From: Athripsodes cinereus
Lineage: Eukaryota; Arthropoda; Insecta; Trichoptera; Leptoceridae
Assembly: GCA_947579605.1 (NCBI GenBank)
Contig: OX388306.1
Span: forward strand, 558,001 to 622,000
Reading direction: 5' to 3'
Length of the DNA stretch: 64,000 nt
Shown here: piece by piece, positions 2,706-43,287 of the stretch
Layout of the letters: every line of letters begins with the position of its first letter
Numbering within the stretch: position 1 is the stretch's first letter
Program-made: the position numbers and the translations under genes
The notes under the pieces: generated by a model
Databases searched by the model: none
What the model was told of the DNA's origin: nothing
The model's input: the letters and a program-made list of their open reading frames with translations, nothing else

Positions 2706-3078
2706 TGTTACGTAATCACCATTAGGAGGGTACTTAAGTTTGGAAGTTTAATGAATTTGAATTTTTATATTATTTTTGGTTATGGAATGTTTGGAAAATA
2801 ATGACAGGTGGTTGTTTTGGTTTTGATAAAAAGAAAGATCTAGATTAGGCTGGAAGAAAGATGTTATAAAATGGGTATATAAGAAATCTGTGTGAACTGT
2901 AATAATATGTGACGTATATATAAATAATAGTTGTTGTAATATGTATTTTAAATAAATAATAATTGTAAATAAATAAAAACGTTTAAATAAATTGTTAATT
3001 TTCAAGATGTCATTCTTTTAATTGAATTCAGACTTTATTTTCCCTGACACAAGTTATTGAAAAACGATTTACGTTACA
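2706..3078 (+). repeat. Gypsy 5' LTR, 373 bp
   Basis: It starts TGTTACG and ends TTACA, so it has the canonical TG...CA ends. The same 373 bases recur as the interrupted 3' LTR. It contains a TATA-like stretch (ttataaaa, then tatataag at about 2865-2883), followed by several AATAAA-type signals at about 2950-2990. This gives a U3-R-U5 layout with promoter and polyadenylation signals inside the LTR. Confidence 0.93.
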
Positions 3079-3079
3079 T

Positions 3080-3096
3080 TGGTGTCAGGTGTGGGG
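3080..3096 (+). other. Primer binding site, tRNA-Leu type
   Basis: One base after the 5' LTR lies TGGTGTCAGGTGTGGGG. TGG pairs with a tRNA CCA end, and the following bases are complementary to the usual 3' acceptor and T-arm of eukaryotic tRNA-Leu with about one mismatch. The tRNA identity is from general knowledge of tRNA-Leu 3' ends and was not searched. Confidence 0.7.
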
Positions 3097-3146
3097 TTGT
3101 GAATCAGATATTTAAGTGCTTAGTGGAAATAAAGACTGTGTAAAAT

Positions 3147-4610
3147 ATGTCATCAAAAAAATTAACTCTACTTGACTTGAAAGTGGTGGATCTGAAGCGC
3201 GAACTAGAAGAAAGAGACGCGGATACATCTGGAACGAAGGGTGTGCTCCAACTTCGACTAAGAAAGGTGATGGAAGAAGCAGGTGAAGATCCGGAAACAT
3301 ATATCTTCGAGTTGCCTATAACCACCAGTGAGCTTTATAAAGAAATCGAAAAGAAGCTTCAAGAAAATGCTACAGCTATGAAAGAAGAAATAGAAAGGCT
3401 TCGAGAAGATTCTAGAGGAACGAAAGAAGAAATTGAAAGGAAGTTTCAAGAATATTCTGTGTCCTTTGATGAAAGGATTAGCGAGTTAACAAAGCAGGTG
3501 AAAGTTTTGGAGAATCAGGCGCTTTCTTCAACAGCAAGAACGGATTTTGAGCAGAACACAACGGTGGACACAGAGTTCAAGTGTGTAGAGAGTGGTGCAA
3601 CTTCAATGGTGGAGCATGTGCGTAGTGATATGCCAACTTTTGATGGAAAGAACTCTTGGGAAGAGTACTTAACTTTGTTCGAAACAGTAGCTATGATAAA
3701 TGGCTGGTCGATGACAAGAAAAGCATCAGTATTGAGTATATCTTTACGAGGAGATGCTTTAAGAGTCCTTCAGATGATTCCGCTTGCGGATAGACAAAAC
3801 TTTAAATCTTTGGTTGAGAGACTGGAGATGCGATTTGGACATAAGCATATGGAACAAGTTTATAGGTCACAGTTGAAGAATCGTGTGCAGAGGCCCAATG
3901 AAACTCTACAGGAATTCGAGGCGGATGTAGCGCGTCTAGTGAGATATCCATACCCTACAGTTTCTGATGATGTATGTGAAAGTCTTGCAGTAGACAAGTT
4001 TTTGGATGGACTACGAGCAAGTGAGACACAACAAGCTATAAAACTGGCTAGACCACAAACTCTTAGTGATGCTTTAACCCAAGCACTCGAATTTGAAGCT
4101 GTAAGACAATCCGTACGAGGTCACGCTCAAGCCCGTGTGGTGGAAGCTGTACAAGAAAATCAACCACTTTCAATAGAAGACATAGTTAAGAAGGTTTTGG
4201 AGGCCTTGAAAGGAAAGAAGAGACAACTACGTTGCTGGGACTGTGGACAAATTGGACACCTGCGTAATCGGTGTCCAGGAAAACTAAAAAGGGTTGATGG
4301 AAAGGAGCAACTGTCGACCCGCATTGCCAATGCCTCGAAGAGATATGCAGATGTTGCGTCGTTCAGCGGACAAGTCAGCAGCATGTTTATAAATGGCAAA
4401 GTAAATGGAAAGAATTTGAAACTTTTGTTGGACACTGGAGCAACAAAGACAATCATGAGACCTGATTTAGTTTGCGAAAAAAAACAAATAGAATCAACTA
4501 AATGGACATTACGGACGGCAACTGGAGAGTCGGCGTCTGTATGCGGTGAGACAGTTGCCAACTTTCACATTGGAAGCACCATCTTCGATCATCAGGTGTG
4601 GCTGAGATAG
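3147..4610 (+). CDS. gag: Gypsy Gag with SAP-like domain, zinc knuckle and start of protease
   Basis: 487-codon frame of the LTR retrotransposon, coding for the structural protein that packages element RNA. Residues about 5-45 fit a SAP motif (LKVVDLKRELEERD then a Gly/Lys turn and a Leu-Arg helix), a DNA/chromatin-binding fold. About 60-130 is a charged heptad-like coiled coil. About 155-340 is the Gag capsid-like region with a Trp-rich start. C363-X2-C-X4-H-X4-C is a nucleocapsid zinc knuckle. The aspartic protease begins here with the catalytic D429-T-G motif. The frame stops at 4608-4610 inside the protease fold; the rest is in the -1 frame of pol. The start is the first ATG after the primer site. 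Confidence 0.93.
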   Translation: MSSKKLTLLDLKVVDLKRELEERDADTSGTKGVLQLRLRKVMEEAGEDPETYIFELPITTSELYKEIEKKLQENATAMKEEIERLREDSRGTKEEIERKFQEYSVSFDERISELTKQVKVLENQALSSTARTDFEQNTTVDTEFKCVESGATSMVEHVRSDMPTFDGKNSWEEYLTLFETVAMINGWSMTRKASVLSISLRGDALRVLQMIPLADRQNFKSLVERLEMRFGHKHMEQVYRSQLKNRVQRPNETLQEFEADVARLVRYPYPTVSDDVCESLAVDKFLDGLRASETQQAIKLARPQTLSDALTQALEFEAVRQSVRGHAQARVVEAVQENQPLSIEDIVKKVLEALKGKKRQLRCWDCGQIGHLRNRCPGKLKRVDGKEQLSTRIANASKRYADVASFSGQVSSMFINGKVNGKNLKLLLDTGATKTIMRPDLVCEKKQIESTKWTLRTATGESASVCGETVANFHIGSTIFDHQVWLR

Positions 4611-7600
4611 AGGAGGAAGTTATTCTTGGAATGGATGTAATGGCGAAGTATGGATTCAAACTGGATCTGAAGAGGCGAACTCTGAAAATTGGGGATGAAG
4701 ATATTCTTGTACAAGAGCATGAAGAATTCGCTACACGTGTGCTTGCGGCAGAAGTTGTTACTATTCCAAAACAAAGTGAAATGTTAGTACGAGCCTACTT
4801 AGATTGTGACATTCCAAATGGACATGTTTTAGTAGTGGAGTCCAACGCTAATACTGAAGCTGGAAAAGGAGTGTTGATTGCGAGAGTCCTGATTCAAGCT
4901 AAAAAGGATATTTTGGTCAGACTAATGAATATCAATGACTATCCAGTGACTATCAAAGAAGGAGTTTATTTAAGTATGTGTTCATCGGTTTCGTCAGTAA
5001 CATGTAGAGTGAGCGGTGGCCAAGTTTCTTCAGAGGAGGTACCAAAACACCTTGACGACTTAGTGAAGGAGGCTTGTAAGGAACTTACCAAGGAACAGAG
5101 CAAACAGATTAGATCCTTCATCGCTAGAAATCAGGATGTCTTCGAGAACCCAAGTCAACCCAAAGGAAGAACAAGTGTTGTTAGTCATCGAATAGACACA
5201 GGTGATGCAAGACCCATTCGTCAAGTACCCAGAAGATTACCTTTAGCAAAACGGGCGGAAGCAGATCAAATTATTCAAGATATGGAACGGGACAAGGTAA
5301 TAGAACCGTCAAGCAGTCCATGGTGTTCACCTGTAGTGCTGGTTAAGAAGAAGGATGGCTCAACTCGGTTCTGTGTTGATTTTCGCCAACTTAATAATGT
5401 TACTAAGAAGGACAGTTACCCTTTGCCTCGTATTGATGATACGTTGGACACATTGGCTGGCTGTAAAATCTTTTCAACGTTGGATTTGAAGAGTGGATAT
5501 TGGCAGGTTGGACTGGAACCTAAGGATAGAGAGAAAACAGCATTCTCTATTGGAAGTGGATTATGGCAGTTCATTGTTATGCCGTTTGGACTTTGTAACG
5601 CTCCGGCTACTTTTGAGCGTTTAATGGAAAGCGTGCTGAGAGGATTGTCGTGGGAGACCTGTTTAGTGTACCTGGATGACATCATCGTGCTTGGAAAATG
5701 TTTTGAGGAGCACTTACGAAATTTGGAACAAGTGTTTTCACGATTGAGAGCGGCCAACTTGAAACTCAATGTTAAGAAATGTACATTGTTCCGAAGACAA
5801 GTCAACTATCTGGGTCATGTTGTCTCTGAGGAAGGAGTGGCGGTGGATCCTGAGAAGATTAGAGCTGTTCAAGACTGGCCTACACCTAAAGACAAGCATG
5901 AAGTAAGAAGTTTTTTAGGCTTAAGCACTTACTATCGGCGATTTGTTTTGGGCTTCGCTGATATCGCTAAACCATTGACAAAACTCACAGAAGAAAGTAA
6001 TGAATTTATATGGGATTCAAAATGCCAATGCGCGTTTGAAGAATTGAAGAAGGTATTGATTAATTCCCCGATTCTAAGTTATCCTCGAGCCGAAGGGAAT
6101 TTTATTCTGGATACGGATGCAAGCAACGTCGGCATTGGAAGTGTACTATCTCAAGTTCAGGATGGTCAAGAACGCGTAATTGCGTACTTCAGTAAAGTTT
6201 TGTCAAGGCCGGAACGCAATTATTGTGTAACGCGAAGAGAGTTACTTGCTGTAATCAAGTCAGTTGAGCACTTCCGCAAATACCTATATGGACGGAAATT
6301 TCTTTTAAGGACAGATCATTCGGCGCTTGTATGGGTGTTACGATTCAAGAATCCTGAAGGTCAGGTTGCAAGATGGATAGAAAGATTGCAAGAATATGAC
6401 TATGATTCTGAGCATCGAGCTGGACTTCGTCATAAAAATGCTGATGCACTGTCAAGGCGTCCATGTCCAGAGGATTGCCAGCATTGTAATAAAGCGGAGG
6501 AAAGGTTCGTCATGATTCGTAGAACTACAGTCATCGATAATTTTTGGCAAGATGATGAAATTCGAGCGCACCAGTTGGAAGATCCTGACCTTGGACTTTT
6601 GATGCAGTGGAAAGAAAATGATCGAAAACCTTCATGGGAAGAAATAGCTTCATGTTCACCAAATGTTAAATCATATTGGGCACAATGGCAATCCATAGTT
6701 GTGGAAAACGGGTTGTTGAAACGTATTCTGGAAAGTGAAGATGGAACACAGCAGAAACAACAGCTATTGGTTCCAAGGAAGAGAGTTCCTGATGTCCTTA
6801 AGCTGCTTCACGATGATGTGTCTGGTGGACACTTGGGAGTTAAAAAGACTACAGAAAAGATTCGTCAGAGATTTTATTGGGTCCGTTACACTGAAGATGT
6901 AAAAGATTGGTGTAGAAGATGTGTGACTTGTGCTACTTCGAACGGACCTCAAAAACAGAGGCGTGCGCCAATGAGACAGTACAATGTAGGTAGTCCATTT
7001 GAAAGAATAGCCATCGACATAGCAGGACCGTTTCCCACAACTGAAAGAGGGAACAAGTATATTTTAGTAGCAATGGACTATTTTAGTAAATGGACAGAAG
7101 CCTATGCATTACCAAATCAAGAGGCTACCACTGTTGCTGAAATCTTGGTAAGAGAGCTGATAAGTCGTTTTGGAGTACCGTTGGAGCTTCATTCGGATCA
7201 AGGAAGAAATTTTGAGTCAGCCGTATTTCAGCAAGTATGTGAGATATTGGGAATTCGAAAAACGAGAACAACTGCTTTGCATCCACAGTCGGATGGAATG
7301 GTGGAGCGAATGAATCGAACATGTGGAAAATATCTGTCGAAGGCAGTGTCTGATCATCAGAAGGATTGGGACGAATACATCCACTTGTTCTTATTGGCCT
7401 ATCGTTCGGCAATTCATGAGACAACGGGACAAACACCAGCGAGTGTGATTTTTGGCCGTGAACTACGGTTACCTTGCGACTTGCAGTATGGATCTAAGCC
7501 TGGAGAGGATCTTGTTGGAGAAGATTATGTATCGGAACTTCGGAGAAAGATGAACGACATCCATGAACGTGTGCGGGCTAATATTCAAGTCGCTAGTGAC

Positions 7601-8479
7601 AGGATGAAGGAAAGATATGATGTCAAAGCTGTGGAAGGAGGGTATCAAGCTGGAGATTTAGTTTGGTTGTTCAATCCTCAACGGAGACGAGGCTATTCAC
7701 CGAAGCTTCAAAAATCCTGGGAAGGACCGTACGAGGTGATTAAAAGAATAAATGACGTTATTTATCGAATACGACGAAAATCAAATGGCAAGCCGAGGGT
7801 GGTACATTTCAATCGCTTAGCACCGTTTTTAGGAGACAATAAAAGTGAAGGAAACAACCCGATTGTTCAAGTCTGTAAAGTCCTAAGTAAAGAGAAGAGT
7901 TTTGAAGAGTTTATGAAGACGCCTCAACGAAGAATTCATCATGGTGTCACTATCGAAGTTGAGCAAGATCTTTTTGACACTCCAGAGGATTATGTTTTGG
8001 CTCATTGCTTGGCTCAGAATGCAAAATTTACTAATGGCATAGCCAAAGTTTTCAAGAAGAAGTACGGGATATTGGAAGAGATTAAGACCAAGAGTTTGAA
8101 AATTGGAGAAGCGGTCCATCTACAGCATGGGGAACGACATATATTTTACATGGTAAATAAAGCAATCCCTGAAGAACAAACAGAGTATGTTCAGATGTGG
8201 CACTGTTTACAAAGTTTGCGGGATCAAATGTTACAAATTAATCTTACGAAGCTCGGCATACCAAGGATAAGTGGCAGTATGGATTGGAAAGTTGTTCGAA
8301 ATATGATAGAAGAGATCTTCTGTAATACTGGAATTAATGTTTTAGTTTGTTGTTTTAATCCAGGGTATAGTGAGAACATCAAGAAGTCTGTACCTTGTTA
8401 TTTCTTCAAGACTTCACATTGCAGAGAGGATTCAGGATGCTCCTATCTTCATCCAGAGAATTCGTTCGGGACGAACTAA
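4598..8479 (+). CDS. pol: Gypsy Pol: protease end, RT, RNase H, integrase, plus C-terminal macro domain and CCCH finger
   Basis: About 1293 codons, counted from 4598 (a GTG, not a true start; the frame is open back to 4550). Residues about 9-13 (ILGMD) complete the protease. RT is about 200-430 with catalytic YLDD at 358-361. RNase H is about 500-625 (LDTDAS). The integrase zinc-binding region is about 735-785, with the catalytic triad D807, D867 and E903 (D-D-35-E) and a GPYEVI-type module near 1045. Then comes an unusual extension. Residues about 1118-1252 match the OARD1/TARG1 type of macro domain: an acidic DLF start, LAHC, a GIA-VFKKK segment, then K1188 and D1229 in the positions of the TARG1 catalytic pair. 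A CCCH finger follows (C1267-X7-C1275-X5-C1281-X3-H1285). The frame ends 17 bases before the 3' LTR. Apart from the break from gag no lesion is seen. Confidence 0.93.
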   Translation: MAEIEEEVILGMDVMAKYGFKLDLKRRTLKIGDEDILVQEHEEFATRVLAAEVVTIPKQSEMLVRAYLDCDIPNGHVLVVESNANTEAGKGVLIARVLIQAKKDILVRLMNINDYPVTIKEGVYLSMCSSVSSVTCRVSGGQVSSEEVPKHLDDLVKEACKELTKEQSKQIRSFIARNQDVFENPSQPKGRTSVVSHRIDTGDARPIRQVPRRLPLAKRAEADQIIQDMERDKVIEPSSSPWCSPVVLVKKKDGSTRFCVDFRQLNNVTKKDSYPLPRIDDTLDTLAGCKIFSTLDLKSGYWQVGLEPKDREKTAFSIGSGLWQFIVMPFGLCNAPATFERLMESVLRGLSWETCLVYLDDIIVLGKCFEEHLRNLEQVFSRLRAANLKLNVKKCTLFRRQVNYLGHVVSEEGVAVDPEKIRAVQDWPTPKDKHEVRSFLGLSTYYRRFVLGFADIAKPLTKLTEESNEFIWDSKCQCAFEELKKVLINSPILSYPRAEGNFILDTDASNVGIGSVLSQVQDGQERVIAYFSKVLSRPERNYCVTRRELLAVIKSVEHFRKYLYGRKFLLRTDHSALVWVLRFKNPEGQVARWIERLQEYDYDSEHRAGLRHKNADALSRRPCPEDCQHCNKAEERFVMIRRTTVIDNFWQDDEIRAHQLEDPDLGLLMQWKENDRKPSWEEIASCSPNVKSYWAQWQSIVVENGLLKRILESEDGTQQKQQLLVPRKRVPDVLKLLHDDVSGGHLGVKKTTEKIRQRFYWVRYTEDVKDWCRRCVTCATSNGPQKQRRAPMRQYNVGSPFERIAIDIAGPFPTTERGNKYILVAMDYFSKWTEAYALPNQEATTVAEILVRELISRFGVPLELHSDQGRNFESAVFQQVCEILGIRKTRTTALHPQSDGMVERMNRTCGKYLSKAVSDHQKDWDEYIHLFLLAYRSAIHETTGQTPASVIFGRELRLPCDLQYGSKPGEDLVGEDYVSELRRKMNDIHERVRANIQVASDRMKERYDVKAVEGGYQAGDLVWLFNPQRRRGYSPKLQKSWEGPYEVIKRINDVIYRIRRKSNGKPRVVHFNRLAPFLGDNKSEGNNPIVQVCKVLSKEKSFEEFMKTPQRRIHHGVTIEVEQDLFDTPEDYVLAHCLAQNAKFTNGIAKVFKKKYGILEEIKTKSLKIGEAVHLQHGERHIFYMVNKAIPEEQTEYVQMWHCLQSLRDQMLQINLTKLGIPRISGSMDWKVVRNMIEEIFCNTGINVLVCCFNPGYSENIKKSVPCYFFKTSHCREDSGCSYLHPENSFGTN
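7949..8354 (+). other. Macro domain (OARD1/TARG1-like) encoded within Gypsy pol
   Basis: In-frame part of pol, residues about 1118-1252. The order of features follows ALC1/OARD1-like macro domains. These are the DLFDTPEDYVLAHC entry strand, a Gly-containing loop before VFKKKYG, the IFYMVNK strand, an amphipathic helix with Leu-Arg-Asp, PRISGSMDW, and a final MIEEIF helix with a hydrophobic strand. In human TARG1 the catalytic residues are Lys84 and Asp125, 41 apart; here K1188 and D1229 are also 41 apart. The likely activity is binding ADP-ribose and removing it from acidic residues of proteins. It is an inference that the activity is retained. Confidence 0.8.
8396..8452 (+). other. CCCH zinc finger at the C-terminus of Gypsy Pol
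   Basis: Residues 1267-1285 read CYFFKTSHCREDSGCSYLH, a C-X7-C-X5-C-X3-H pattern with the aromatic residues typical of RNA-binding CCCH fingers. It lies about 15 residues after the macro domain and 8 residues before the stop. CCCH fingers usually bind single-stranded RNA. Confidence 0.75.
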
Positions 8480-8495
8480 ATTAAGAGGGAGGCAA
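8480..8495 (+). other. Polypurine tract of Gypsy element
   Basis: Purine-rich stretch (about aagagggagg, followed by caa) directly upstream of the 3' LTR TG, in the place where plus-strand DNA synthesis is primed. One C interrupts it. Confidence 0.7.
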
Positions 8496-8670
8496 TGTTA
8501 CGTAATCACCATTAGGAGGGTACTTAAGTTTGGAAGTTTAATGAATTTGAATTTTTATATTATTTTTGGTTATGGAATGTTTGGAAAATAATGACAGGTG
8601 GTTGTTTTGGTTTTGATAAAAAGAAAGATCTAGATTAGGCTGGAAGAAAGATGTTATAAAATGGGTATAT
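8496..8670 (+). repeat. Gypsy 3' LTR, first part (before LINE)
   Basis: The first 175 bases of the LTR, identical by eye to 2706-2880. The LINE insertion interrupts it just after 'gggtatat', inside the TATA-like stretch tatataag. Confidence 0.93.
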
Positions 8671-11111
8671 TTGCAGAATTTGAGGCCTTATTGGAGTCTT
8701 TGACACATCACTATGTACATAGCATGATAATGGGTGACTTCAACACATGTATCATCAAGAATGATTATCGTGCTACCAGACTATTAAATGTGTTAAATGC
8801 CTTGAGTCTTCAGGTTTTGCCTCTGCTTCCAACTCACCACACATATAATACAAATTTTATATCAGAGACATTATTGGACTTAATCATTACATCTTTGCCT
8901 GACCAAGTAAAATGTCACGGGCAGTTGACTGCTTCAGGTTTCTCCAACCATGATTTAATTTATGTGTCATATAAAGTTAAGCTCCCTAAAGAGAAACCAA
9001 AAATTTACTCCTTCCGAAACTTTCGCCGAATAAACCTAGATCAACTATACGAGGATGCTAAAAGACTGTCCTGGCAAGGGATTTATGAGTCTAATGACAT
9101 AAATTTCATGGTTGAGGAGTTCAATCGTTCAATAACCAACCTTTTCGATAAACACGCCCCAGTACAATTTGCTCCAATGAAATATCCTCCAGCACCTTGG
9201 CTTACAGATGAAATACGAAAACTTATGGCCCGGCGAGATCGAGCAAAAGTAAAATTTAAAATATCTAAATCCTCTTTTAGATGGGAGAAGTACAAGCTTC
9301 TACGTAATCGTTGCTCACATCTCTGCCGTTTAGCCAAAAAAGATTTTTTTCTGTCCAGTATTGAGTCATCATCACCGAGCGATACGTGGAAATTTCTTAA
9401 AAAATACGGGTTGGGTAAGCAGAAAGACTCTTCTGATTCTGTAACTATTGGCCTTGATGAGTTGAATCTCCACTTTTCTACCCCGCCTGTTGTAATTGAT
9501 TCCTCTATAAAAACCGCTTCTTTGAATAATCTTAGAGTTGTTAAGTCTTCTGGCGAACCCTTTAAGTTTAAATTGATAACACTGGAGGAGGTTCGTAAAA
9601 CTCTCAAATCTATTAAGTCCACAGCTGTTGGGTGCGACGGTATAGGTTTGAGAATGATAAACCTTGTTTCAGATTATATTACTCCAATCATCGTGTTTAT
9701 AATCAATTCTTCTCTTCTTTCAGCTTCGTTTCCTAACCAATGGAAAAAAGCAAATGTGATCCCGCTGGCAAAGGTTGGCTCCCCATCTTCACCGAAGGAT
9801 TACCGGCCTATTTCAATTCTGCCTCTCCTTTCGAAGGTCATGGAAAAACTTGTTTATCAGCAATTGAATGACTATCTTCTGGCTAACAATTATCTCAATC
9901 GATTCCAATCTGGTTTTCGTAGGGGACATAGTACAACAACCGCCCTTCTTAAAATTTCTGAGGATGTCAGATCCGCTATGGAGGTAAGACGTTTGACATT
10001 GCTGACACTTTTAGATTTTAGTAGTGCCTTCAATAGCGTAGATTTCGATATCCTTCTGGCTCGATTGGAGGCTTTAAATATTTCTGGTGATGCTCTGCGT
10101 TGGATGGACTCCTACCTTAGGGACCGACAGCAGAGGGTCTGTATTGGTGATGGGGCATCCGATTGGGTCGACCTTGGGGCGGGAGTTCCGCAGGGTTGTA
10201 TACTGTCCCCTTTACTCTTCTCTATTTTCATCAACCCGATTACTGAACATCTTCACGGGGCCTATCATCTTTATGCGGATGACCTCCAATTATACATTCA
10301 CTTTGATCTGAATAACATTGATGCTGCATTCTTCAATATGAATGCCAACCTTGAATACATAAATTTGTGGTGTAGAGATCATGGACTCTTAGTTAATCCA
10401 AGTAAATCACAAGCAATTATTATCGGAAGTCCTAGGAGTCTGTCTTCTCTTACTTCACTCGCTCCTTTGCCATCTTTAGTCTTAAACGACTCAACTATCC
10501 CATTTTCTGATGTTGTTAAAAATCTGGGTCTGTTCTTTGATTCCAAGTTATCATGGTGGAAACAGGTCAACATAATCAGTAAAAAAGTATTCGGTTCACT
10601 GCATTCGCTTAGGAGATTGCAGAATTTCCTTTCAGTAGACACAAAAAAGCTATTGGTTCAATCTTTGATTCATCCCCTATTCGACTATGCGGATGTTTGT
10701 TACTTGGATCTGTCGATTGAAGGTTTAAATAAGTTGGAACGTCTTCAGAATACTTGCATTCGATATGTCTTCGGTCTCAAGAAATACGATCACATATCTG
10801 AATATCGTGAACACCTTGGCTGGAAAACTATTCTTCAACGCAGAAATGCTCACACTCTTTGCCTTCTTTATAAAATTTTATTTGATCCCAACACTCCATT
10901 ATATTTGAAGGAAAGATTTGAGTTTTTACACTCCCACGGACTTTCACTACGATCAACCTCCAACAATCTTCTAGTGATCCCGTCACATCGTTCGAGCTGT
11001 TACACCGATTCTTTTTCAGTTCATGGTGCTAGGTTGTGGAACCAGCTTCCACTAAAAACCCGAACTTGTACTTCTTTTTATAACTTCAAGAAAGAAGTTA
11101 ATGGTTGCTAG
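8661..11111 (+). pseudogene. 5'-truncated LINE ORF2 (endonuclease C-terminus + reverse transcriptase), CR1/L2-like
   Basis: 816 codons open without stops; the first three (8661-8669) are LTR sequence, so the start is accidental. What remains of the apurinic-type endonuclease is its C-terminal half (MGDFN, LLDLIIT, SNHDLI). The RT follows with KDYRPISILP, RRGHSTTTALL, LLDFSSAFNSVD, GVPQGCILSPLLFS and the catalytic YADD at 538-541. The C-terminal tail is of the type 'FSVHGARLWNQLP'. No RNase H is seen. The features fit the CR1/L2/Daphne side of the Jockey superfamily; the exact clade needs a tree. Truncated at the 5' end, so not autonomous, but the frame is undamaged, meaning a recent event. 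Confidence 0.88.
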
Positions 11112-11504
11112 TCTTCCGTCTCATCTACTTGTATAGAGGTTTCCCATGGTTTTAAATCTTTTTTTTGTATATTTATACACAATGAGCAATCCTGACCCAT
11201 TCCTACCACTTATCCTATTCCCGTATCCCATCATCTATGTCGTGTCACGTATCCGAAATTGTTTTATATTTGGGTAGTTTTATATATGTATGTATATATA
11301 TTAATTATATTTATTTGTTTAGTATTTATTTGTATGTATATATCTTCAATTATTTATTTTATTTATTTATTGTTTTTATTTTAGTTTTTGTTTAATGGGT
11401 TAGTTGGAAGATATCGCGCTTCTGCGATAAACTCGCCCATTGCACAATTTTTTTTGTATAGTTAAATTGAATTTTTTCATTTGTTGTTTTTTTGTGCAAT
11501 AAAG

Positions 11505-11542
<38 letters not shown>
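8671..11542 (+). mobile_element. CR1/L2-like LINE, 5'-truncated, inserted in Gypsy 3' LTR
   Basis: It starts abruptly in the endonuclease and ends after an AATAAAG and an (ATT)n tail (about 11511-11542). A 5-base duplication (tatat, 8666-8670 and 11543-11547) flanks it, although the AT-rich tail makes the exact edge ambiguous. The 3' UTR word 'gggcgagtttatcgc' (here antisense: gcgataaactcgccc) recurs at several other places in the window. Confidence 0.9.
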
Positions 11543-11548
<6 letters not shown>

Positions 11549-11745
11549 AGAAATCTGTGTGAACTGTAATAATATGTGACGTATATATAAATAATAGTTG
11601 TTGTAATATGTATTTTAAATAAATAATAATTGTAAATAAATAAAAACGTTTAAATAAATTGTTAATTTTCAAGATGTCATTCTTTTAATTGAATTCAGAC
11701 TTTATTTTCCCTGACACAAGTTATTGAAAAACGATTTACGTTACA
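11543..11745 (+). repeat. Gypsy 3' LTR, second part (after LINE)
   Basis: Remaining 198 LTR bases (11548-11745), identical by eye to 2881-3078, preceded by the repeated tatat. It ends TTACA, then the target duplication atac. Confidence 0.93.
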
Positions 11746-11829
11746 ATACATAATATATATTTCTTATAAAATTTAATTTTTACATTATTATCGAAAGTAT
11801 ATTGATAAATATGTATGTTTAAATTTTAT

Positions 11830-13168: not shown

Positions 13169-16100
13169 TCACGCCATGTCCCAGGAGGGGTAGGCAGAGA
13201 GAACGGAACGCCATATAGATCTATCCTTACATACTTCTTTCGCTTCCTCTACATTCATCCAGTTTCTCATACATGCACGCCGATTTCTCTTACTCAGCAC
13301 GCGTCCGTCCTTAAGAATTTGGTCCACGTGATCAAGCCACGTGGTTCTTGGACGTCCGCGCTTCCTCACACCCCTTCTTTCAGATAAATACATCCTCTTC
13401 GTCATCCTTTCATCTTGCATTCGCTCAACATGTCCAAACCATCTCAACTTGTTTACACGCATTCTGTCCACAACACTCTTCACACATCCGCTCATTCTCC
13501 TGATATCCTCATTCTTCACTCTATCTCGCAACGTTTTACCAACCATTCTTCTCAGTGAACGCATCTCCACAGCATTTATTCCACTCTCATCCTTTTTCAA
13601 CCACGTCCAAGTTTCGCTTGCATACATAAGTGTCGGTACCAGAATGGTATTGTGCACTAGCATTTTTGCCATGTTCGACACACTGCTATTGCTAACAATG
13701 GGTCGAAGTGCACCATTCACTCTAGCACCGGCGACTTTTCTTCTTTCAATGTCCTTATCAAATCTTCCATCCCTCGCAAACAGACTTCCCAAATAGACAT
13801 ACTCATTCACTTGCTCTAAACATTCAACGTCAACCTTTATTTCACATACCGTTCTTTCACTCTCTCTTTCAAACACCATTACTTTCGTCTTCGCGACATT
13901 CATTTTTAACCCATTTGCACTACAGCTATCATACACACACGAAACAATATCTTGTAAGTCACTTTCATTCTCAGCCATTAAGACTAAATCGTCTGCATAC
14001 ATCAAAGCATTCACTCGATTTCCATTCAGTTCAACACCTACATTCATCCCTTTCAAAGGTCGCATACAGAAGTCAAAAAATAGATTGAATAGCCACGGAG
14101 ACATAACACAACCTTGCTTCACTCCTTTAGTGAGGGTAAACCACTCCGAGAGGGTATTGTTTACCCTCACACAAGCGGAACTCCCCACGTAAAGTGAAGA
14201 TATTGCGCGTATCAACTGTGTACTCACTCCATACTCCGACAGCACGCGCCACAGTCTTTCTCGGTCCACACGATCATATGCCTTCTCCAAGTCAACGAAC
14301 GCGCAAAAAAGCTTCTGGTGTTTACCCAAAAACTTTTCTACGATCATCCTTAGGGAAAAGATCTGATCGGCACACCCTCTACCGTTTAAAAAAGCTCCTT
14401 GCGCGTCCCATACCTTACACTCAGTAGTCTTTCGCACTCTCTCAATCAAAATTCTTCCGTACAGTTTACCTACTGAGCTCAGCAAGCTAATAGCCCGATG
14501 GCTTCCGCACTCAAGCCTAGCACCTTTCCCCTTATACAGCGGACAGATGATGGCTTTCCTCCAGTCCTCCGGAGTAGTGCCTTCTCTCCAACAGGTGTTG
14601 AATAGCTCTAGGCACCATGTGAGGGTCTTCGATCCACCAGACTTGATGAGCTCAGTTGAAACACAATCATACCCAACCGCCTTACCGCACTTGGCTCTTT
14701 TCAAAGCATTCTTAATTTCAGTCATACAAATCTCATCTACACCATTCACGTTACTTTCTCCACTATTATACTCACTTGTATTTCCGCCTTCACATTCAAA
14801 CAGTTCTTCAAAGTACTCTTTCCATCTTCTCAACACGCATTCTTCACTAACCAACAAGTTACCATCAATATCTTTTATCCCTTTCACAGAATTTACATCC
14901 ACACTTGTCCTCTTTCGTTTCACCATCTTCCAAAAGATTTTCAAGTTATCTTTCGCGTTCACTGAAAGCTTCTGGCATTCTTTGTCTTCAAGCATCCTTT
15001 TCTTCATTTCCACTATATCACGCACTTCTTTCTTACACACCCTGTAAATCTCTTTCTTCCGTTCTTTTTCGTCTTCATTTCCCTGTCTCACACTCATTAA
15101 ATCTTTCCACGCATTCTTCTTCTTTTCCACAATCATTTTCACATCATCATCCCACCATGCATCACCTTTCTTGCGTCCAACGGCAGTTTCACCACATACT
15201 TCTCTAGCACACTCTACTAGCACACCCTTCATTACTTCCCACTGCTCATCCAATGTACATTCTTTCCCATCATGCGAGCTGAATCTCTCGTTCGTCTTCC
15301 TTTCATACTCTTCCTGTACATTTTCATCTTTCAATTTTTCGACTCTCAGCCTTTTAGTTGGCGTGATTCTTTGTGTTCTCGAGCGCCAGCCAGAAAACAG
15401 ATTTATTTTTGTAACCACAAGGAAGTGATCTGTTTCCAACTCAGCGCCACGATACACTCTGGTGTCCGTGGTTACCTTCCTAAGATGAGAGTCCACACAC
15501 ACAAGGTCTATCATCGATCTTTCACCCCCTCTCTCCCATGTATACTGATGGATTTCCTTATGAGCGAAAAAGGTATTTGCCACAAAGAGATCCATCTCCA
15601 AGCATGCTTCAACTATACGTCTTCCATTGTCATTCACTCTTCTATCACCATTATTTCCCAACACACTCTCTAGTTCGTTTCTTCTTACACCGACCCATCC
15701 ATTAAGATCACCTGCCAAAATTAATCTTTCATTCACTTTCCTGTCATCCGCAATCTTTCGCACACTGTCCCAGAACTCTTCTTTTTCCGTCTCGATAGCA
15801 TCGTTTCCAGGTCCGTACCCAATTATGAGTAAAATCCTAGTCAACCCTACCTTGAAGCGGATCCAGATTAGTCTGGGACCAACACATTCATATCCCTTCA
15901 TACAGTTGCTCATTCTTTCAGACAGAAAAGCACCCACACCTTGACACGCATGTTGAGTGTCAGGAACTCCTGACCACAACTCGATTCTTCCCTCTCTTTC
16001 GTTTATTCCACTACCTTTCCTCTTAGTCTCACACACGCATAAAACATCCACAAATTTTTCATCCATCATCTCAACTATTTCATTCGTCTTTCTCAGCATC

Positions 16101-16213
16101 CCTCCTCTTACATTCAACACACCTACCCGGCATTCCGGTCTCCTCTTTGTGCCTTTCTCCCCCTTTGACGCGCCATGATGGGTGGCAAACCTCATCGCTG
16201 ACATTTGCGTCAA
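13169..16213 (-). CDS. RTE LINE ORF: endonuclease-reverse transcriptase
   Basis: 1014 codons, uninterrupted. An AP-type endonuclease occupies about 25-275, with LNVRGG, CETKRK, GYGPG, DLNGWVG, SMIDLVCVDS and ETDHFLV. The RT lies at about 500-790, with KAVGYDCVSTELIK, CGSHRAISLLS, FVDLEKAYDRVDR, GVKQGCVMSPWLF and catalytic Y739-A-D-D. The C-terminal domain includes WFGHVERMQ and KRGRPRTTW, typical of RTE proteins that databases often label craniofacial-development-protein-2-like. It nicks target DNA and copies its own RNA there. The length suits a complete RTE ORF, so this copy may be capable of movement. The first Met may not be the true start. The stretch coding residues 4-12 is shared with the S1 repeats. 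Confidence 0.93.
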   Translation of the reverse strand: MTQMSAMRFATHHGASKGEKGTKRRPECRVGVLNVRGGMLRKTNEIVEMMDEKFVDVLCVCETKRKGSGINEREGRIELWSGVPDTQHACQGVGAFLSERMSNCMKGYECVGPRLIWIRFKVGLTRILLIIGYGPGNDAIETEKEEFWDSVRKIADDRKVNERLILAGDLNGWVGVRRNELESVLGNNGDRRVNDNGRRIVEACLEMDLFVANTFFAHKEIHQYTWERGGERSMIDLVCVDSHLRKVTTDTRVYRGAELETDHFLVVTKINLFSGWRSRTQRITPTKRLRVEKLKDENVQEEYERKTNERFSSHDGKECTLDEQWEVMKGVLVECAREVCGETAVGRKKGDAWWDDDVKMIVEKKKNAWKDLMSVRQGNEDEKERKKEIYRVCKKEVRDIVEMKKRMLEDKECQKLSVNAKDNLKIFWKMVKRKRTSVDVNSVKGIKDIDGNLLVSEECVLRRWKEYFEELFECEGGNTSEYNSGESNVNGVDEICMTEIKNALKRAKCGKAVGYDCVSTELIKSGGSKTLTWCLELFNTCWREGTTPEDWRKAIICPLYKGKGARLECGSHRAISLLSSVGKLYGRILIERVRKTTECKVWDAQGAFLNGRGCADQIFSLRMIVEKFLGKHQKLFCAFVDLEKAYDRVDRERLWRVLSEYGVSTQLIRAISSLYVGSSACVRVNNTLSEWFTLTKGVKQGCVMSPWLFNLFFDFCMRPLKGMNVGVELNGNRVNALMYADDLVLMAENESDLQDIVSCVYDSCSANGLKMNVAKTKVMVFERESERTVCEIKVDVECLEQVNEYVYLGSLFARDGRFDKDIERRKVAGARVNGALRPIVSNSSVSNMAKMLVHNTILVPTLMYASETWTWLKKDESGINAVEMRSLRRMVGKTLRDRVKNEDIRRMSGCVKSVVDRMRVNKLRWFGHVERMQDERMTKRMYLSERRGVRKRGRPRTTWLDHVDQILKDGRVLSKRNRRACMRNWMNVEEAKEVCKDRSIWRSVLSAYPSWDMA

Positions 16214-41318: not shown

Positions 41319-43287
41319 TTATCTAGCAGAGACGGAGACCTGCCATACTCTGATGGTGTTGTCACTGTATCCTGCAAAGAGGGTCTGTCCATCAGTAGAC
41401 CAGGCCAGGGAGAGGCACTGGATGGGCACAGCCTTGGCTGAGGGAGATGTCACGTCAGGGCGGAGTTCATCTACCATCTCCTTGCTTTCCAGATCCCAGA
41501 TCTTGATAGATGGACCGAAAGCAGCACAGAGCCAGTATCTGTTGGGGGAGAAACAAAGGGCCTGGATGATGTCGTTGTGGTCCAGGGTGTGGAGATGCTT
41601 GCCCTCATTGAGGTCCCACAGCATGGCTTTGCAGTCCTTACCACCGGAGGCACACAGAGAGCCATCAGGAGAGACTGTCACTGTGTTCAGGTAACCAGTG
41701 TGACCAATATGGTTGATCTTCAGCTTGCAGTTAGTCAGATTCCAAACCTACAGAAACACCAAACAAAAATTATTAACAATTTCACTACTTCAAGTACCCA
41801 ATAACTAAATGTAATAAAAACATATCCAATATTGACTATGATCTGGATCATGCGTAATCACACACAAGAAAACAGTTTAAGAAACTTATGTAGGAAGCAG
41901 TCACTCCTTACATATATTTGTAAATAAACAGTCTTAAATGAAATACTTCATGAAATGTCCGATTACCCTTCACATACTTAAGTATACATATAAGAAGATG
42001 AGTACAGACCTTGACAGTCCTGTCCCATCCAGCAGAGACAATGATGGGGTTGGTGTGATTGGGAGAGAACCTCACACAGGAGACCCAATCAGTGTGGCCC
42101 TCCTCCTGGATGGTGAACTTGCACTCGGCCAGGGTGTTCCACAGCTTGATGCTCTTGTCGCGGGATCCAGACACAATCTGCCTGTTGTCAGCTGAGAAAG
42201 CTACGGAGAGCACATCCTGTGAAACATTCAATAAAAGATAACAAAAATTTTCACAAAAGAGATCATACACTCCCTCTCGTATCAATCTGAAAAACAAACA
42301 AAAACTAGGCCTCTTCTGCACTAGTTAGTCATTTCCTTCATCAGTTCTAATACTGCAGGAATGTATTCAAGTGAGAAAAATCATACAAATTGTCCAAACA
42401 TTCTTGTTTTAGATTTTAGGATTCTCAACCTAGAAGGAACGTACTGTATGACACTGTCTCATTCGGCTCTCATGTGTTTTCTACATCTACATTATATAAT
42501 TTTACTTACAACACTCATGGAACGCAGTACATCTTGTCATCTCAGAATCTCTCCTATGAATCTTCTGCCCCGCTGGGCGACACAACTATCACTTGACACT
42601 ACATAATAATATCTTCTGCCCACGACGGGCTCAAATTTAATTATTCAACAATCACAATGATTTGTCAGACCTTTGTATGATCTTCGAAGCGACGAGTTGT
42701 CTTGCAGGCACCCAAGTCCCAAAGACGGAGGGTCTTATCCCAGGAACCAGACAGGGCGTAGTTACCATCGCTGGAGAGGACAACATCAGAGATGAAGTGT
42801 GAGTGTCCATAAAGACGCTTGCTGGGTACTCCATAATTGCCGTCGTTTCTTGTCAGTTTCCAGACGATCAAAGTCTTATCTGAAACGTAGAAAAGCTAAA
42901 TAACATTGCCTAACACGAACACTAACTCCTAACTTATTATCAGAATCATCAGTCCCATATCCGCTAACCGCTCATAGCTCTCACGTGGTTAATTTAGTTA
43001 TACATCACTTACCAATGAAAAATTAACAGAAATATTTTGAAATGCATGAACATAAGTATTAGAATTGATAAATTATACACAAAAAATACAAAATTTGAAC
43101 AAATCTCTACCAGGATTAATCGGATGAAATCACAATATCAAAAACTGTCGTGCTGAAATTAAATAAATATTTACTAACCTCTGGAAGCCGAAAGAATCAT
43201 ATCAGGGTACTTGGGATTTGTTGCAATTTGCGTGACCCAGCCATTGTGGCCGGTCAATTTACCTCTTAGCTGTAAAGTCTCAGACAT
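41319..43287 (-). CDS. RACK1: RACK1, receptor for activated C kinase 1 (small-subunit ribosomal WD40 scaffold)
   Basis: Four coding exons on the minus strand: 43287-43179, 42879-42671, 42216-42010 and 41747-41319. All junctions are GT-AG and the exons splice in frame to exactly 317 aa, the length of animal RACK1. The protein is a seven-bladed WD40 propeller that sits on the 40S ribosome near the mRNA exit and docks protein kinase C and other signalling proteins. Visible blades include [69 protein letters not shown] and [10 protein letters not shown]. The start MSETLQLRG fits the usual N-terminus. Introns are 299, 454 and 262 bp. The gene faces away from the PP2A gene. Identification is secure. 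Confidence 0.97.

Follow-up and report, generated by a model that had tools for sequence, protein, structure and literature searches.

TARG1 (OARD1, C6orf130) is an animal ADP-ribose glycohydrolase. K84 is its nucleophile and D125 serves hydrolysis, the side chains of S35 and T83 lie at the distal ribose, and its pattern in print is TKx(30,35)Px[IL]GxGxD (PMC6397177, text available in part). Among retroelements, the teleost epsilon-like endogenous retroviruses have additional macro-domain open reading frames (ORFs) (Basta et al. 2009, cited in PMC4977317, text available in part). A stretch of 64,000 nucleotides from the caddisfly Athripsodes cinereus (GCA_947579605.1, contig OX388306.1, positions 558,001 to 622,000, forward strand), here called the window, contains a Gypsy-type long terminal repeat (LTR) retrotransposon. 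It belongs to a recently active family in which a macrodomain and a CCCH zinc finger form the C-terminal part of Pol. Other Gypsy-type elements of the same genome, several with a putative env-like ORF, carry a related, more diverged macro domain that lies between RNase H and integrase.

The tail of the window's Pol comprises residues 1118-1293. Its features, together with a short box that precedes it, are as follows:

7949..8356, + strand: TARG1/OARD1-like macrodomain, Pol residues 1118-1253 (phmmer, structure comparison)
8159..8161, + strand: K1188, aligned to the catalytic K84 of TARG1
8282..8284, + strand: D1229, aligned to D125 of TARG1
8396..8452, + strand: CCCH zinc finger, Pol residues 1267-1285 (C-X7-C-X5-C-X3-H, exact)
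7898..7915, + strand: SFEEFM box (Pol residues 1101-1106); the Asp equivalent to D20 follows 23 residues later

The tail is almost certainly a macrodomain of the TARG1/OARD1 class. In a phmmer search of PDB sequences, its residues 4-133 match human OARD1 with an E-value of 1.3e-19, which agrees with the original prediction for this DNA that Pol continues in frame past the integrase into such a domain. Five of the six PDB sequences matched up to E 1 are OARD1/C6orf130, and the sixth (E 0.57) is unrelated. Up to E 1, the Pfam macro model has no match to the tail in the window, and on the relative P0003 it reaches a sub-cut-off 0.047. The predicted tail structure superposes on TARG1/OARD1 at 1.0-1.5 A with 32-33% identity (VIA-align), and DarG is the second-best fold family with 14-18% identity. 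The structure model was built from an alignment of mostly OARD1 sequences, and the sequence search is independent of that model. Both give TARG1 as the closest fold, so the fold check proposed with the prediction had a positive outcome by sequence and by structure.

K1188 and D1229 are 41 residues apart, like K84 and D125 of TARG1, and no gap lies between them in the alignment. The D20 position of TARG1 is retained at Pol residue 1124. K1188 and D1229 as well as all four CCCH residues are kept in 41 of the 41 family copies read. The two catalytic matches, their spacing, and the exact C-X7-C-X5-C-X3-H finger had all been read correctly in the original prediction. CCCH fingers have a spacing range of C-X7-9-C-X4-6-C-X3-H. 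The window finger scores E 0.1 with Pfam zf-CCCH_2, under the cut-off, and the equivalent finger of P0003 exceeds the Pfam zf-CCCH cut-off (20.9 vs 20.5 bits). The structure model is poor at the finger, with block means of 38-52.

A tail query of the animal's own genome (716 Mb; best 150 of 165 candidates scored) gave at least 145 rows, comprising 141 from one family at 89-100% identity and 4 distant rows at 24-27%. The family rows include fragments and copies split over two rows, and the whole tail query is covered by at least 119 of the 145. Among the matches listed, 42 of the 145 rows fall in an open frame that is exactly 1779 codons long, about the length of gag plus pol, and six further rows lie in frames of 1775-1788 codons; 48 of 145 are thus in a single frame of 1775-1788. 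A 1412-codon open frame is found in 18 of the 145 rows, and the remaining rows are in other frames, all below 1775. If the 1412-codon frame reflects one shared break, this would have been spread by transposition. Many copies carry the tail in frame, and the absence of such copies, which the original prediction had named as a refutation, is not observed. P0003, a predicted protein from a contig of 990 bases, is 72% identical to the tail and has the same order of integrase end, macro domain, and finger. It retains the Lys, the Asp, all CCCH residues, and the second Gly of the TARG1 pattern; at the Thr and the first Gly of that pattern it departs from TARG1 in the way the tail does. A one-off capture was considered and rejected on the coverage of the whole tail in these rows and its presence in P0003. 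For region 1118-1293, a Pol-length search of predicted proteins found zero relatives among 152 candidates, and a tail-length search found one, P0003, among 9. In an alignment search (best 120 of 850), the named matches were vertebrate and mostly OARD1, and arthropod OARD1 was not seen. IMG/VR scans found no relatives of the element. In an OARD1 query of the own genome (best 150 of 160), a search that can miss intron-split genes, the rows checked or in known families were retroelement copies.

The four distant rows (L009-L012) have their matching stretch at a different Pol position, after RNase H and before integrase. They lie elsewhere in the genome, beyond the window from which the original prediction was made. 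According to Pfam, RNase H of L009 ends at residue 689 and integrase H2C2 starts at 887, with a similar gap in L012 and L066, and nothing is named in the internal stretch itself in L009 and L012, the two scanned. A profile of four internal stretches matches five PDB TARG1/C6orf130 sequences with E 3.5e-13 to 1.6e-12, the next match being at 0.55, and hhalign gives this profile 98.5% to OARD1 and 97.0% to the tail. The L009 stretch finds at least 26 internal-type rows (25 places) among 150 scored in the own genome, at 35-100% identity, and the rest are the tail family. Four internal types were read (L009, L012, L066, L068). The surroundings were read at seven places, namely L009, L010, L011, L012, L066, L068, and in part L067; the L065 sequence did not fit the pattern used for internal domains. 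L009, L012, and L066-L068 are on contigs C21, C20, C5, and C7 of the own genome. The integrase of L010 is cut short, and L011 is a damaged copy with a split pol. At five places pol is followed by a basic site and then LFGT.D, env-like by motif: L066, L067/L072, L068, L069 (same place as L009), and L071 (same place as L011). No such motif occurs at L070 (the place of L010), and the L012 sequence reaches only the integrase. With such motifs after pol, the internal-domain elements may be Errantivirus-like. In the alignment, S35, D37, and M40 are kept in all five internal rows. The D20 and K84 positions are each kept in four of the five, and L012 has N and Q there, respectively.

The macro domains at the two Pol positions share a feature outside the domain. 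In the window, P0003, L009, L012, L066, and L068, an Asp located at the D20 column or beside it is preceded, at a distance of 23-26 residues, by a [ST][FY]E[DE]F[ILM] box, and the internal domains have it upstream in a [TS]YEDF[IL] version. The box is found once per Pol ORF in the five scanned, with 5.5e-7 per position in shuffles for a motif defined post hoc, and the OARD1 rows of the alignment show nothing comparable. Gapped linker comparisons are weak, since 23 to 206 of 2000 shuffles were equally good in eight comparisons. The presence of this post hoc box in all six retroelement domains checked argues against two separate captures of the host OARD1 gene, one behind and one before the integrase, and for one module that moved. 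In favour of two captures, the Pol positions differ in elements whose reverse transcriptases (RTs) are just 46-47% identical (61-83% among the internal-domain elements themselves), and the tail resembles OARD1 (35% identity) more closely than it does the internal domains (17-27%). The macrodomain tree is unrooted and therefore cannot decide between them. Two captures come slightly short of an even chance, and they and one moved module are about equally likely. A broader history can be proposed tentatively, in which arthropod retroelements and env-bearing retrovirus-like elements would share an ancient TARG1-derived module (YEDF-type box and macrodomain) at two Pol positions. One form would have kept Lys and Asp and gained the CCCH finger, the other would have lost the Asp and may be a reader, and both would be in an arms race with host ADP-ribosylation.

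The favoured functional reading is that the Pol-borne domain acts on ADP-ribose and counters PARP-type modification of the element, and the chances for and against it appear even. TARG1-class domains act on nucleic-acid ADP-ribose as well as on protein ADP-ribose. As a part of Pol, the domain would be carried in the virus-like particle and packaged with RT and integrase. It would bind ADP-ribose, and the tail form may hydrolyse it. The targets would be the element nucleoprotein (Gag, RT, integrase, RNA or cDNA ends), nearby host factors, or neighbouring chromatin, and PARP-type modification would be countered while the element is reverse transcribed and integrated. The finger would tether the domain to element RNA. 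Most economically, we infer that the element would use the domain to read or remove marks of host ADP-ribosylation from its particle, its RNA, its cDNA, or chromatin nearby. ADP-ribose binding is probable, hydrolysis by the tail form could go either way, and a role against PARP is a tentative suggestion. To our knowledge, ADP-ribosylation as a restraint on retrotransposons has been little tested in arthropods. As a viral brake it is well studied in vertebrates (PMC7729036, text available in part). Eight mobile elements are significantly misregulated in fly parp-1 mutants; five of them rise, and three of the eight are of the gypsy superfamily. Ten more elements rise and miss the false-discovery limit or p 0.05, nine of them of that superfamily (PMC7712786, text available in part).

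Several observations weigh against this reading. The authors of the fly study state, in the text available, that the PARP-1 effect is possibly indirect (PMC7712786). The tail departs from the published TARG1 pattern: T83 is replaced by N, G121 by S, and G123 by S (35 of 41 copies) or N (6 of 41); the S35 position is A, and the loop past D125 is three residues shorter than in TARG1. Both catalytic side chains thus appear to sit in an altered pocket. In the internal rows, where gap placement is uncertain, the D125 column is without Asp in all five (gap, N, E, R, R), and L012 is also without the Lys; the states of S35 and D125 are opposite in the tail and the internal rows. The TARG1 likeness of the structure model is partly built in, because its alignment is mostly OARD1, and a model from the single sequence is unconfident (predicted local distance difference test, pLDDT, 39.7). 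Because of this departure, TARG1-like seems the proper label for the tail rather than proven TARG1 enzyme, and because the motif is matched in part (T83, G121, G123, and S35 changed), ADP-ribose binding is a safer claim than hydrolysis. The altered residues around the reaction centre, the Asp absent from every internal row, the D20 position, which the tail and four of the five internal rows keep, and the adjoining integrase in both arrangements would suit a reader and not an eraser. Such a domain would solely bind ADP-ribose and steer the integration complex towards DNA breaks or chromatin that bears ADP-ribose, or hold Pol in place. It is, however, rather unlikely, as both catalytic side chains are retained in the tail family and in P0003. 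DarG and TARG1 are reported to remove ADP-ribose from nucleic acid, and a domain fused to integrase and a CCCH finger would be placed at nucleic acid. With DarG as the second-best fold family, this would suit protection of cDNA or RNA ends, in which ADP-ribose is removed from nucleic acid and the ends stay usable by integrase. The low identity of the DarG match makes this specific role unlikely; it is a special case of the favoured reading and not its opposite.

A captured host fragment without function would agree with the several changed TARG1 motif positions and with the differences within the family, which look neutral. In 41 copies (the window's and 40 hand-picked from full-length rows), there are 27 distinct sequences and 37 distinct differences. 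Codons 1-135 have 21 replacement, 5 silent, and 1 stop difference, codons 136-176 have 6 replacement and 3 silent, and one further difference is in the stop codon. As additional points against the favoured reading, the replacement share is near the neutral expectation of 0.70-0.73, one copy has a stop, and only P0003 hints at maintenance of the tail itself. The ratio of replacement to silent change (dN/dS) within the family, which the original prediction had proposed as a test of selection on the macro part, was rejected as evidence, since these few differences come from copies that are too young. The window family is uninformative on constraint because its copies are young and their differences split as they would without selection. 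The internal macro part has a dN/dS of 0.16-0.48 in ten pairs, read at silent distances above 1.1 in nine of them, the tenth including the damaged L011. RT has 0.055-0.21 in four pairs and zero in L009-L011 (no replacement change), and in five pairs silent sites are saturated and give no value. Where values can be computed, those of RT (0 to 0.21) indicate tighter constraint than in the internal macro part, and on this modest evidence the internal domain seems constrained, less so than RT. A functionless passenger is nevertheless very improbable, given that P0003 keeps the order integrase, macro domain, finger, with the Lys, the Asp, and all CCCH residues, and that its internal relatives, of which there are at least four types, show dN/dS below 0.5. 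The macrodomain class, catalytic positions, finger, and recent activity named in the prediction stand. Its counter-defence or removal of ADP-ribose stays a suggestion, as the motif is matched in part, the loop is shorter, and the copies are too young to reveal selection.

The element as a whole has LTRs, a target duplication, gag, and the order RT, RNase H, integrase, and is Gypsy (Ty3) by these criteria. Its parts in the window are:

2706-11745, + strand: Gypsy-type LTR retrotransposon, whole element, ATAC on both flanks
2706..3078, + strand: 5' LTR, 373 nt, TG...CA, 4-bp target duplication ATAC at 2702-2705
3147..4610, + strand: gag ORF, 487 aa, with SAP domain, Retrotrans_gag, CCHC knuckle, and aspartic protease start
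4598..8479, + strand: pol ORF, 1293 aa, open for 1293 codons and ending in the tail
5342-5821, + strand: RT (Pfam)
6095-6397, + strand: RNase H (Pfam)
6770-6943, + strand: integrase H2C2 (Pfam)
6995-7276, + strand: integrase core (Pfam)
7724-7825, + strand: p58-type C-terminal domain (Pfam), after which the tail comes
8496-8670, + strand: 3' LTR, first part, no difference from 2706-2880
8661..11111, + strand: non-LTR retrotransposon ORF in the 3' LTR, listed start a few bases within the LTR
11543-11745, + strand: 3' LTR, second part, no difference from 2876-3078, then ATAC at 11746-11749

The Pfam domains from RT to the p58 C-terminal domain span Pol residues 249-1076. The 5' LTR and the rejoined 3' LTR have zero differences over 373 nt, so the identical LTRs and the recent activity of the original prediction both hold, with the addition that an inserted non-LTR retrotransposon splits the 3' LTR in two, with TATAT as its 5-bp target duplication (8666-8670 and 11543-11547). 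The reading frame, described there as undamaged, is open throughout pol, but gag and pol are in different frames in the window copy. There is no room for env, because the 3' LTR starts 16 nt past the pol stop codon. A SAP-type domain opens the gag protein (3177-3266; Pfam PF02037, 27.5 bits, cut-off 23.9). The inserted non-LTR element has an 816-codon reverse-transcriptase ORF and an ATT-type simple-repeat end. Elsewhere in the window, a 1014-codon frame at 13169-16213 (minus strand) resembles, by eye, an endonuclease/reverse-transcriptase non-LTR element, and an ORF at 41908-42321 (minus strand) resembles a RACK1 WD40 exon, possibly of a host gene. Rfam and tRNA scans of the window gave no matches. 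TTAGG, the arthropod-type telomere repeat, forms arrays at 5 of 10 contig ends examined in the own genome.

A literature search of partial coverage turned up no account of a Gypsy Pol with a TARG1-class domain, at either position. The arrangement, thought undescribed in the original prediction, is so to that extent, but fish retrovirus macro-domain ORFs are in print, and this statement in PMC4977317 (text available in part) was the sole report of a macro-domain retroelement found in that search. The fish epsilon-like retroviruses likewise have a macro domain in a retroelement; there it is in additional ORFs and in vertebrate hosts, as compared by the citing description. A TARG1-like domain in one retrotransposon, and a related one at another Pol position in other retroelements, suggest that ADP-ribose is something that such elements must handle, and they provide a testable domain in two natural variants, one having the Asp and one lacking it. 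TARG1/OARD1 shares the fold and the K84, D125, and D20 positions with the tail; unlike that enzyme, the tail domain is fused, together with a CCCH finger, to the Pol of a retroelement and has the changed motif positions and the shorter loop described above. RNA-virus macrodomains (alphavirus nsP3 and others) likewise lie in a viral polyprotein and match in fold, with 11-18% identity to the tail for those of alphaviruses and rubella. The nearest viral models by fold include the arthropod-associated Kadipiro virus VP8 (28%) and Frankliniella-associated viruses (20-21%). Non-primate lentiviruses have a dUTPase, a host-derived enzyme, between RNase H and integrase; its position is like that of the internal macro domain, and the enzyme is unrelated. 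Gypsy chromodomain elements have a host-like chromodomain behind the integrase that reads histone marks and guides integration, and the window element also has its extra part behind the integrase, in this case a macrodomain and a CCCH finger.
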